From Actinopolyspora halophila DSM 43834 (GTDB lineage: Bacteria; Actinomycetota; Actinomycetes; Mycobacteriales; Pseudonocardiaceae), in the NCBI RefSeq assembly GCF_000371785.1, contig NZ_AQUI01000002.1, forward strand, positions 4,389,352-4,453,351: a stretch of DNA of 64,000 bases, read 5' to 3'. Below, in pieces: positions 11,322 through 14,004 of the stretch. How positions within the stretch are numbered: position 1 is the stretch's first letter; each line of letters starts with the position of its first letter. The notes beneath the pieces were generated by a model, which was given only the letters and a program-made list of their open reading frames with translations, did no database searches and was not told the origin of the DNA. The translations under genes and the position numbers were made by a program.

Positions 11322-11654
11322 TCAGACGGCAGTCGTGGCGCCGCAGAGCACACCTTCGATAGCGGCCGTGAACTCGCGCCACTCCCGCCGCTCGTTCTCC
11401 AGGCTGCTCTTGCCGGAAGGGGTCAGGCTGTAGGACCTGCGCTGTCTGCCTCCGACCGTGCTCCACTCGCTGCGGACGTAACCCGCCTTCTCCAGTCGAC
11501 GCAGCGCGGGGTAGACGGTCCCGGTAGGCAGGGAAACGGCTCCGCCACTGCGCTGCTGCAGTGCCTCGATGATCGCGTAGCCGTGCAGCCGCCTGCCATC
11601 CAGAGTGGCCAGCAGCAGTCCGTCCAAATGACCACGAAGGGCATCAGCTTTCAC
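11322..11654 (-). CDS. PadR-family transcriptional regulator
   Basis: A 110-aa winged-helix protein. Residues 9-75 (LDGLLLATLDGRRLHGYAI, TGTVYPALRRLEKAGYV) are the PadR DNA-binding domain. It is of the short class lacking a long C-terminal dimerisation domain. It is divergent from the unknown two-gene membrane operon starting at 11924, with 269 bp between, so it may regulate that operon; this is inference from position only. Confidence 0.88.
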   Translation of the reverse strand: MKADALRGHLDGLLLATLDGRRLHGYAIIEALQQRSGGAVSLPTGTVYPALRRLEKAGYVRSEWSTVGGRQRRSYSLTPSGKSSLENERREWREFTAAIEGVLCGATTAV

Positions 11655-11923: not shown

Positions 11924-13645
11924 ATGCAACCGAATCCCCAGGCAGCGGACCAAGAGCCTCGGAACGAGCCACGGTCGACCCCGGCTCTCTCCGAAATCGA
12001 CGGTCATCTCGTGGCTGCCGTGCACCTCAAACCCGAGCTGGCCGACCGGATCGGCGAGAACTACCTGAACGCTCCGCGAGAGGCGCTACCCCCTCCCCAG
12101 GGAACGGACGCCGTGCTCGTGCTCACCCAGGCGCTGGTGGCCCGGCGCAGAAGAGTCATACGCGACGTGCTGGTGCTGGTGCTGATAGTCGTGTCCGGAG
12201 TGGCCGTCCTGCCCTACACCCTGTTCTTCCTCTTCATCTGGGGCATACTTTGGCTGTTCTGGTCACTGACGTTCGGCAGGAACAGACCACCAGCGGCAAC
12301 AACCCCCCGCACCGACGAGGAGGAAACCAGTACAGCAGGTCTGATCTCCACACTGGTTTTCCTGGGAGGCTGGTTCGTTTTCGGAACGATCACGAGCATG
12401 ATCGTCGCCCTGTTCCACCCCTTCTCGAACGATCCGGACTCCTCCGGCATGTGGGCGAGCCTGCTGACCGCTCTACTGTTCATACTTCCCTGGGTACCCA
12501 TCCTCGTGGTGCTGTTGCTGGACAAGTGGGTGACCCGCTATCTGATCTCCTCGGGAGGAGGCAGAAAACCGGTCTCGGCCAACCCGGTGGTGGCCGGGTT
12601 GGCCAACGCACTGACCTCCTCGGTGACGTACAGCCACGTTGAGCTGCTGAACGCGGTCGCCCAGCGTCCCGACGGGAATACCGCTCTGGCGCACACGGGT
12701 TGGCACGCCTTTCCCGGCTACGGCCACCGGCTCAACGCCTGGACGTTTCCTCTCGTACTGCGTCCCCGAAAACAGGGTGCCGATCCCCCGGCACTTCGCC
12801 CCAAGGAGCTCTACAGCGCGGTCACCGAAGAACTGCTGTCGATGTCGGATTCGGACCGCCTCGCCCCGAACAAAAGGCTGCGGGAGTTGACCGTGAGGCC
12901 GGTCGTGGTGATCAACGCCGCGCAACTCCACCGCAACAGCGCCGCACCTACGGCCCGGGCATTGCTGTCGCGAGGGAGTGGTCCCCCGTTGAGCTCGGTA
13001 GCTCCCGAGACGATGGACGCCCTCCTCGAGGAGGACACCGAATGGGCACGGCACTTCCAGGAGAGCAGCGTACTCAGCTGGGACTCCGAGCTTCTCGTTA
13101 CGACCCTGTTCAACATCAGCTGCGATAACCGCACGCTGTACCTGGAGTGGAACGCTTACTGCCTTTTCCCGATGGCTCCGGAACACCGCTTGAACGGTTC
13201 CGTCGAGAACACCTTCAACGACGTGGCCTCCGCCACCCTGCTCGAGTTCCTCCAGACACTCGGAAGTATCGCCTGGCGCTGGAGAACACTGGACGGCGCG
13301 CTGCCACGGAGGAGGATCAACCGCCCTCGCGACAACAACGTGCACAGCATCAGGGAAATCGTCGCCGACCAGGAGTGCGTCAACGAGTTCCAGGACCTGG
13401 ACGGGCAACGCCACGTCACGCTGCTGCAGGAGCGCACGCTGTCCGCGGTGCGCAACCACCTGGCCGAACGAGGTTTCAGCACCGAAGCACTGGAGGAGCA
13501 GGCCACCCAGATCATCAACAACACCACCAACAACTTCCACGGATCGCAGTTCCTCGGAGCCCAGAACTTCGGGGCGAACAGCACCGCCACGGCGGTGGCC
13601 GCCTCTTCGACAGCGACGCACGTTCCCGGGAGGGATAACGGTTGA
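11924..13645 (+). CDS. Unknown multi-pass membrane protein with C-terminal NFHGSQFLGAQNF motif
   Basis: A 573-aa protein that I do not recognise. The N-terminus (1-78) is soluble. There are probably four membrane segments at about 80-97, 98-117, 139-163 and 176-199. A large soluble domain (about 205-530) contains YSHVELLNAVAQRP, LRELTVRPVVVINAAQLH and LYLEWNAYCLFP. The last 35 residues are Asn/Thr/Ala-rich and include NFHGSQFLGAQNF at 537-549. The next gene begins with a near-identical motif. The stop overlaps that gene's start by 4 bp (TTGA). No nuclease, NTPase or transporter signature is visible. The divergent PadR gene may control it. Confidence 0.8.
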   Translation: MQPNPQAADQEPRNEPRSTPALSEIDGHLVAAVHLKPELADRIGENYLNAPREALPPPQGTDAVLVLTQALVARRRRVIRDVLVLVLIVVSGVAVLPYTLFFLFIWGILWLFWSLTFGRNRPPAATTPRTDEEETSTAGLISTLVFLGGWFVFGTITSMIVALFHPFSNDPDSSGMWASLLTALLFILPWVPILVVLLLDKWVTRYLISSGGGRKPVSANPVVAGLANALTSSVTYSHVELLNAVAQRPDGNTALAHTGWHAFPGYGHRLNAWTFPLVLRPRKQGADPPALRPKELYSAVTEELLSMSDSDRLAPNKRLRELTVRPVVVINAAQLHRNSAAPTARALLSRGSGPPLSSVAPETMDALLEEDTEWARHFQESSVLSWDSELLVTTLFNISCDNRTLYLEWNAYCLFPMAPEHRLNGSVENTFNDVASATLLEFLQTLGSIAWRWRTLDGALPRRRINRPRDNNVHSIREIVADQECVNEFQDLDGQRHVTLLQERTLSAVRNHLAERGFSTEALEEQATQIINNTTNNFHGSQFLGAQNFGANSTATAVAASSTATHVPGRDNG

Positions 13646-14004
13646 GCGAGACAGGACAGACCTTCAACTTCCACGCGAGCTCGTTCGTGGGGGCGCAGAA
13701 CTTCGCCTCCGGGGGGAGCGCCAACGTGGAACGGGCGGTCGGCAGCGAGGCCGGGTCCCAGGGGGAGCTCGACGAGCTGCGCAGACTCGTGACGGAGCTG
13801 ACCACCCAGCTGGCCGAGCGTTCGGACACCGACGCCGTCAGGGCCCACGACCAGGCCACCGAGCTGGAGGAACTGCTGCGGGAGGAGCAGCCGGACGGCG
13901 ACAGCGTCCGGAAGCGCTGGTCCAAGCTCCGGCCCCTGCTGGACACGCTCGGACACGCGGGCTCGGTGGCTTCCATAGCGGGTCTGCTCGGCGGCCTGTT
14001 CTGA
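13642..14004 (+). CDS. Unknown 120-aa protein: N-terminal NFHASSFVGAQNF motif, coiled coil, hydrophobic tail
   Basis: The start is TTG 13642, overlapping the upstream stop, with GGAGGG about 8 bp before it. Residues 9-21 read NFHASSFVGAQNF, identical at 10 of 13 positions to the C-terminal motif of the upstream membrane protein. Residues about 41-84 are heptad-like and charged (ELDELRRLVTELTTQLAER), predicting a coiled coil. The last ~22 residues (LLDTLGHAGSVASIAGLLGG) are Gly/Ala-rich and hydrophobic and could insert into a membrane or oligomerise. The layout of a short adhesive motif, a helical body and a membrane-active tail resembles small signalling or effector proteins, but the function is unknown. 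Confidence 0.8.
   Translation: MSETGQTFNFHASSFVGAQNFASGGSANVERAVGSEAGSQGELDELRRLVTELTTQLAERSDTDAVRAHDQATELEELLREEQPDGDSVRKRWSKLRPLLDTLGHAGSVASIAGLLGGLF

Follow-up and report, generated by a model that had tools for sequence, protein, structure and literature searches.

The gene pair and its shared motif

The stretch of the Actinopolyspora halophila DSM 43834 genome analyzed here ("the window": 64,000 nucleotides of contig NZ_AQUI01000002.1, in whose numbering coordinates are given unless another locus is named) contains two overlapping genes, referred to as A and B, whose protein products carry nearly the same 13-residue peptide at the ends that face each other. Gene A (11924..13645, + strand) encodes a 573-amino acid membrane protein made up, in order, of an N-terminal part, 3-4 transmembrane (TM) helices, a domain of ~330 residues, the motif and a short tail. 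Gene B (13642..14004, + strand) encodes its 120-amino acid partner. The TTG start codon of B overlaps the TGA stop codon of A, so that the genes share 4 bases; the same -4 overlap is found in 43 of 65 homologous A-B pairs, whose B proteins are 104-135 amino acids long. The motif lies at residues 537-549 of A (NFHGSQFLGAQNF; 13532..13570, + strand) and at residues 9-21 of B (NFHASSFVGAQNF; 13666..13704, + strand), with 10 of 13 residues identical; the positions, lengths, peptides and degree of identity given in a first-pass annotation of this DNA are all borne out. The A-B pair belongs to a large family in which diversified, private motifs match receptors to effectors.

The best local alignment of whole A with whole B is the motif region itself, and its score of 67 was attained by none of 2,000 whole-protein shuffles and none of 20,000 end-to-end shuffles, which rules out chance as the source of the match. 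Nor is the motif a low-complexity linker found throughout the genome: a 29-residue query from the A tail, run against the 5.35-Mb host genome at E ≤ 10, hits the A tail itself (E 9e-14), the B head (E 0.006) and nothing else, and so speaks, at that sensitivity, against a widespread linker. That annotation also held that the codons of the shared residues differ at synonymous sites and that the match is consequently no fresh duplication of DNA. The first part is an overstatement, since only 3 of the 10 shared residues differ in codon (28 of 39 bases are identical), but the second part stands: over the 65 pairs the codon is shared at 63% of identical degenerate residues, as against 55% expected from codon usage. 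Recent DNA duplication is rejected as the main origin of the match on the comparison of codons in the window pair and in the 65 pairs, and a small excess of codon sharing remains. Across pairs the motif is charge-poor and consists of 17-20% G, 10-13% N, 1-2% L and 2% P.

Hydropathy (19-residue window; threshold for TM calls, 1.4) marks three hydrophobic segments in A: residues 75-119 (12146..12280, + strand), which would form one or two TM helices, and residues 135-165 (12326..12418, + strand) and 173-205 (12440..12538, + strand), which would form one each. The "four-helix membrane protein" of the first description has, by these segments, 3-4 TM helices. No Pfam or NCBIfam family matches A at E ≤ 1, and no NTPase or repeat family of Pfam matches any of 29 divergent members of its family at E ≤ 0.01; the description of A as a protein lacking an NLR domain is upheld.

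In an AlphaFold2 monomer model of B the motif region is unstructured and of low confidence, while the rest of the protein folds into a predicted four-helix bundle (residues 35-119; 13744..13998, + strand), with helices at residues 35-58, 63-79, 86-103 and 106-119 and a predicted local distance difference test score (pLDDT) near 90 (block means of 87-93 from residue 41 onward). The stretch of B once read as a hydrophobic, membrane-active tail forms the last of these four predicted helices, and no 19-residue window of the protein exceeds the hydropathy threshold; with its final hydrophobic helix placed inside the predicted bundle, membrane damage by B is possible, not indicated. Part of the B relatives resemble a helical domain, DUF5955 (PF19380), which matches 13 of 31 of them at E ≤ 0.1 (best E 2.7e-6); the B of the window itself (E 0.26, 12.1 bits) lies below the Pfam cut-off of 27.1.

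Covariation and spread of the matched ends

If the two ends are made for each other, they should change together, and they do. Of 67 pairs first recognized, a spurious B call (L051) and a near-duplicate (L018, of L017) were dropped; from the remaining 65, 31 representatives with less than 60% identity between their A bodies were picked. In this set the A tail scores on average 70.3 against its own B head and 30.0 (standard deviation 10) against non-cognate B heads. The cognate B comes first for 22 of 31 A proteins, the cognate A for 26 of 31 B proteins, and the observed cognate sum was attained by none of 100,000 permutations. The correlation between similarity of tails and similarity of heads persists when the similarity of A bodies and of B bodies is removed (partial Mantel r 0.30; 0 of 5,000 permutations). 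Grouped by motif, the 65 pairs give about 14 classes, an approximate number that depends on our choice of rule (score 55, single linkage); VHITGPVISSNIGTSGKARTG with FEIRGPVIGSNVGTSGRARTG and NQGVIQTGGVSNVGNQAIG with NYGIQQSGGVSNVGNQAVG are examples. The test suggested in the first-pass annotation, whether homologous pairs retain the motif and change it jointly on both sides, thereby has a positive outcome.

The same concordance is seen at close range. Within the host genus, GAQNF occurs in both partners at three loci (L010-L012) and GPQNF in both partners at three others (L013-L015), and at L016, in another genus, HSW takes the place of QNF on both sides. When loci with 40-80% identity of their A bodies are compared two by two, the summed cognate scores are higher than the summed cross scores in 192 of 225 cases. 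In all nine genomes that have two scored pairs, the motifs of the two are mutually exclusive (cognate scores 73-99, cross scores 20-28). As read from sequence, the motif is paired, lineage-specific and co-varying, and two pairs that share a cell have mutually exclusive versions of it; we are confident that it couples A and B specifically.

Could the match nevertheless be without function, left over from local duplications that recurred or from gene conversion acting on the ends of the two genes? The excess of shared codons is what such events would leave behind. They do not explain why the match is maintained over widely divergent A bodies and in so many classes, why nine genomes hold orthogonal double pairs, or why the motif is absent where B is absent: the A-like genes at ten loci, some of one gene (L113, L114, L120-L126, L129), have neither a B nor, by eye, a motif. 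We consider this explanation exceedingly improbable.

In the host's family, Pseudonocardiaceae, 80 of 249 genomes and 22 of 46 genera contain a match to A (E ≤ 0.001); in the host genus itself six genomes gave a match and at least four did not. Ninety family loci were fetched and examined (seven weak or partial matches, G002, G019, G094:C172, G152:C26, G167, G170:C18 and G170:C213, were left out; L006-L009 duplicate L011, L012, L014 and L015). At 69 of these the head of the adjacent downstream protein matches the A tail with a score of at least 45. (A technical note: the script counted 70, and L063, whose score of 58 comes from a wrong-frame, high-GC alignment, was not accepted; five of the loci, L036, L041, L048, L078 and L092, were recognized as pairs only in this examination and are not among the 65; and the labels "motif-like" and "no motif" for tails were assigned by eye.) Sixty-seven of the 69 partners are B-type and two, at L047 and L053, belong to another protein family. 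The 20 loci with scores under 45 comprise 13 motif-like tails that have no adjacent downstream partner, three weak matches, two A proteins devoid of the motif (L032 and L094), one fusion and one broken frame (that of the A at L096, whose B matches in the comparison of the 31 representatives). Wherever A adjoins a protein recognized by the B profile, both partners have a motif-like end, and retention of the operon with loss of the motif from one partner, which the first-pass annotation had named as an observation that would count against it, was not seen.

Outside the family the match is retained at 12 loci (L101-L107, L109, L111, L112, L117 and L119), and no partner was found for four further A genes (L108, L110, L115 and L116). 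Across the phylum, the A profile matches 15 of 396 sampled genomes at E ≤ 1e-6, 11 of them in a single genus (f5/g53, probably Streptomyces), where two genomes (G419 and G441) have only a motif-less A-like gene. Nine B-profile matches from that genus (L169-L177) have the helical body of B and, by eye, lack the motif; no A gene lies in their 6-kb stretches, and they are probably DUF5955-like.

Other partners, other receptors and a neighboring gene

The partner of A is not always B. At L047 (781-1443, - strand) and L053 (2029-2703, + strand) A is followed by a 221-225-amino acid protein of a different family, whose head matches the A tail with scores of 73 and 80, respectively. Its domain of ~190 amino acids, which has no Pfam family and which we presume to be cyclase-like, was matched, often by several copies, in 76 of 200 family genomes. 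A relative of this partner adjoins A downstream at L094, where the motif is absent from both. A separate observation (L163-L165, L179, L197) concerns genus g17, in which A occurs with no adjacent partner and in which unlinked, orphan B heads (YVAGRDQHIG) resemble a cyclase-like tail (VVGRDKHVG; p 0.002).

Nor is the receptor always A. We searched 120 family genomes with a profile of the L047/L053 motif class. Its ten best matches (E ≤ 1.2e-7, in five genomes) are A tails and partner heads, as is to be expected when three of the five genomes supplied rows of the profile. Weaker matches (E 0.001-0.3) led to new adjacent pairs, of which four were read (L233-L236): in each, a P-loop NTPase with a VGG..SG.VVVGD.N-type motif near its N-terminus adjoins a protein with a similar motif. 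The NTPases of L234, L235 and L236 give weak to moderate matches to NB-ARC, AAA_16, AAA_22 or nSTAND, of which only AAA_22 in L235 is over the Pfam cut-off; that of L233 is incomplete at the end of the stretch and resembles the L235 NTPase by eye. The adjoining protein is B-type at L234 (B-profile E 3e-13) and L236 (E 1e-11), and cyclase-like at L233 (related to the L047 partner) and L235 (like that of L233 by eye). The NTPase and its partner score 64 at L234, 56 at L235, 80 at L236 and 54 at L233. Thus, both partner types of A also occur with NLR-like receptors, joined to them by a motif of the same kind. A third kind of putative receptor is a right-handed β-helix protein with an NNY.GPVFH.AV...Q.AWNN-type motif: at L178 (3356-5071, - strand; Pfam E 3e-49) the motif is C-terminal and matches, by eye, the head of the adjacent B-type protein, and at L167 (2896-4998, - strand) such a protein is fused to a B-type domain, where the motif is likewise matched by eye.

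A itself also exists fused to its partner: at L086 (G182:C54) a single open reading frame runs from A through one copy of the motif into the helices of B. At the level of sequence the motif occurs once in a natural fusion, and matched versions are seen where A has the other partner family and in NLR-like pairs. These comparisons also bear on the suggestion that the A and B peptides each bind, independently, a third partner that evolves along with them (a chaperone, a cell-wall or a lipid component) and are alike because they fit one binding site. Such a partner would create pairwise similarity with no contact between A and B, but the unrelated motifs of two pairs in one cell would each demand a third partner of their own, and the single motif of the L086 fusion also argues against it; we think this improbable.

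Two further observations are recorded here for themselves: at L133, L145, L149 and L159 other proteins of the phylum combine, in a single chain, an N/G-rich stretch with a B-like helical domain behind it, and at L166 (G057) a caspase-WD40 protein lies upstream of a B-type protein that has its own head motif.

Divergent from A in the window is a gene for a PadR-family regulator (11322..11654, - strand; Pfam PadR E 2.2e-21). All six A loci of the host genus (L010-L015) have this same neighbor, and a PadR gene is present at 14 of the 30 loci L010-L039, the motif-less L032 among them. The PadR protein is 75-98% identical across several genera, far more conserved than the divergent A, and its gene may simply be a neighbor of the A-B pair, not its regulator. 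The constancy of the neighborhood is relevant to another alternative: A and B might form a module of the toxin-antitoxin kind, with the motif as the means by which one of them holds the other in check. The tight translational coupling of the two genes and the small size of the partner would be in keeping with such a module. However, the shared PadR neighbor suggests a fixed chromosomal place, 72,556 plasmid records yielded only one partial A match (29% of A, in Streptomyces griseorubiginosus), and neither a matched homotypic motif nor the exchange of B for another partner family at L047 and L053 is readily accommodated. A toxin-antitoxin module is, in our estimate, very improbable.

A proposed mechanism and its relation to known systems

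What is the matched motif for? The best explanation, and probably the right one, is that A serves as a membrane-anchored receptor and B as its effector, coupled by a homotypic motif of the amyloid-signaling type. The size of A, its anchoring in the membrane and the parallel with the NLR-like NTPases point to A as the sensing side; the occurrence of B with several receptor types points to B as the effector. As to how the ends are coupled, we lean toward cross-β templating. In the resting state both peptides would be disordered. A trigger acting on the cytosolic domain of A, or a clustering of A in the membrane, would cause the tails to assemble into a β-arch or cross-β (amyloid-signaling-like) nucleus, which would template the same fold in the B heads; B would thereby be polymerized at the membrane and its four-helix domain activated. 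The most likely outcome would be a stopped or killed cell, after proposals for the BASS/Bell (bacterial amyloid signaling) and HET-S systems. In this scheme the templating and its trigger are inferred, and so are what B does and any role in defense or cell death. Homotypic templating is the simplest proposal because the ends are similar rather than complementary, because the motif is G/N-rich and predicted to be disordered before assembly, and because each pathway has its own private motif.

The same ends might instead constitute a static docking tag, that is, a finite, constitutive A-B complex (a mixed coil of a β-roll or β-solenoid, for example) that tethers B to the membrane protein and does not polymerize by templating. 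A docking tag would account equally for pairing, specificity, fusion and orthogonality, and some motif classes (SVAVG.GA.A) presumably resemble the β-roll repeats of YadA heads. On the other hand, two sides that are similar and not complementary suggest like-on-like stacking, and a related motif joins NLR-like NTPases to the same partner types, which is the setting of known amyloid signaling. A docking tag is a possibility to be taken seriously, and one that we judge unlikely.

A number of observations weigh against templated coupling of a receptor A to an effector B. Thirteen of the 90 family A loci have a motif-like tail and no adjacent downstream partner (11 were scanned on both strands of the fetched stretch; L029 and L037 are outside that scan), and outside the family the tails of L110, L115 and L116, some of them near contig ends, are motif-like and have no partner that was found. 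At L043, L070 and L071 the adjoining B matches the motif weakly (32-39), and in 33 of the 225 two-by-two comparisons of loci the cognate sum is not above the cross sum. The A tails of genus g17 find no match among unlinked B or cyclase-like genes of that genus (best p 0.06). For the NTPase pair of L233 the shuffle maximum (58) is higher than the observed score (54). Some of the similarity could come from gene conversion, given the excess of codon sharing. The predicted structure of A (mean pLDDT 44.8) is too poor for use, and nothing ties the A-B pair to defense in a neighborhood that has no systematic annotation. Finally, the likeness to BASS and RHIM motifs put forward in the first-pass annotation holds for the principle of matched motifs and not for the peptide: none of 130 motifs matches one BASS3 peptide at p < 0.01 (peptide from PMC8086366), and the 13 of 130 that match one BASS3-like archaeal peptide from the same source and the 6 of 130 that match the fungal σ peptide at this level come from non-independent tests.

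A 2021 review of amyloid signaling poses, in the part used here, the existence of bacterial signaling amyloids in NLR-independent pathways as an open question (PMC7889193). The A-B family is a widespread and experimentally simple candidate for just such a pathway: it offers two genes, ~14 natural motif classes, orthogonal examples within one cell, a variety of partners and receptors, and a natural fusion. It would make the specificity code of functional amyloids testable by peptide cross-seeding alone, and it points to a class of membrane receptors and to partner domains that have no Pfam annotation. One can go further and envisage in Actinobacteria a generic code, itself able to evolve, of matched amyloid-like motifs, with interchangeable receptors (A, STAND-like NTPases, right-handed β-helix proteins) and effectors (four-helix B, the cyclase-like domain), in which A signals by amyloid templating with no NLR; the chances of this wider proposition we put as evenly balanced.

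How does the pair compare with systems already described? A search of titles and the beginnings of abstracts, which did not cover Dyrka et al. 2020, turned up no recognizable description of it. The conflict systems coupled by effector-associated domains (EADs) and the EACC1 two-gene membrane system (PMC7159879) are similar, as far as the relevant portions of that paper go, in the coupling of actinobacterial receptors and effectors through a shared adaptor (with adjacent copies more alike), in a membrane-associated two-gene layout and in cyclase-type components. EADs, as presented there, are small globular domains, whereas A and B share a 20-30-residue motif that is unstructured in the B model, and no family named EAD is among the Pfam matches shown for A, B and their relatives. 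In the EACC1 system, according to the same portions, the 5' gene product has one TM helix and the 3' gene product an N-terminal caspase or cyclic nucleotide (cNMP) cyclase, while A has several hydrophobic segments and B is a 120-amino acid helical protein with no caspase match. The fungal HET-s, σ and PP/RHIM motifs also join a receptor and an effector encoded by neighboring genes through homotypic templating, and some motifs of the A-B family bear a weak likeness to the σ peptide; in the fungal systems the receptors are NLRs, the effectors are of the HeLo type and the effector motif is C-terminal.

The closest comparison is with BASS1-10, which are described, in the sections drawn on here, as motif families of NLR/Bell gene pairs (PMC7889193, PMC8086366, PMC12261475, PMC9815663). 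Common to both are adjacent or overlapping genes, a short motif shared by a receptor and a small helical effector, a multiplicity of motif families, and occurrence in filamentous actinobacteria. A BASS pair is defined, in the pertinent part of PMC7889193, by an NLR receptor with an N-terminal motif and a Bell effector with a C-terminal one. A, by contrast, is a receptor with 3-4 TM helices and no NTPase or repeats, and the polarity is inverted, the motif standing at the C-terminus of A and the N-terminus of B; on both counts the A-B pair falls outside the BASS definition. A is best read as an NLR-free receptor that would use matched-motif templating with the polarity reversed.

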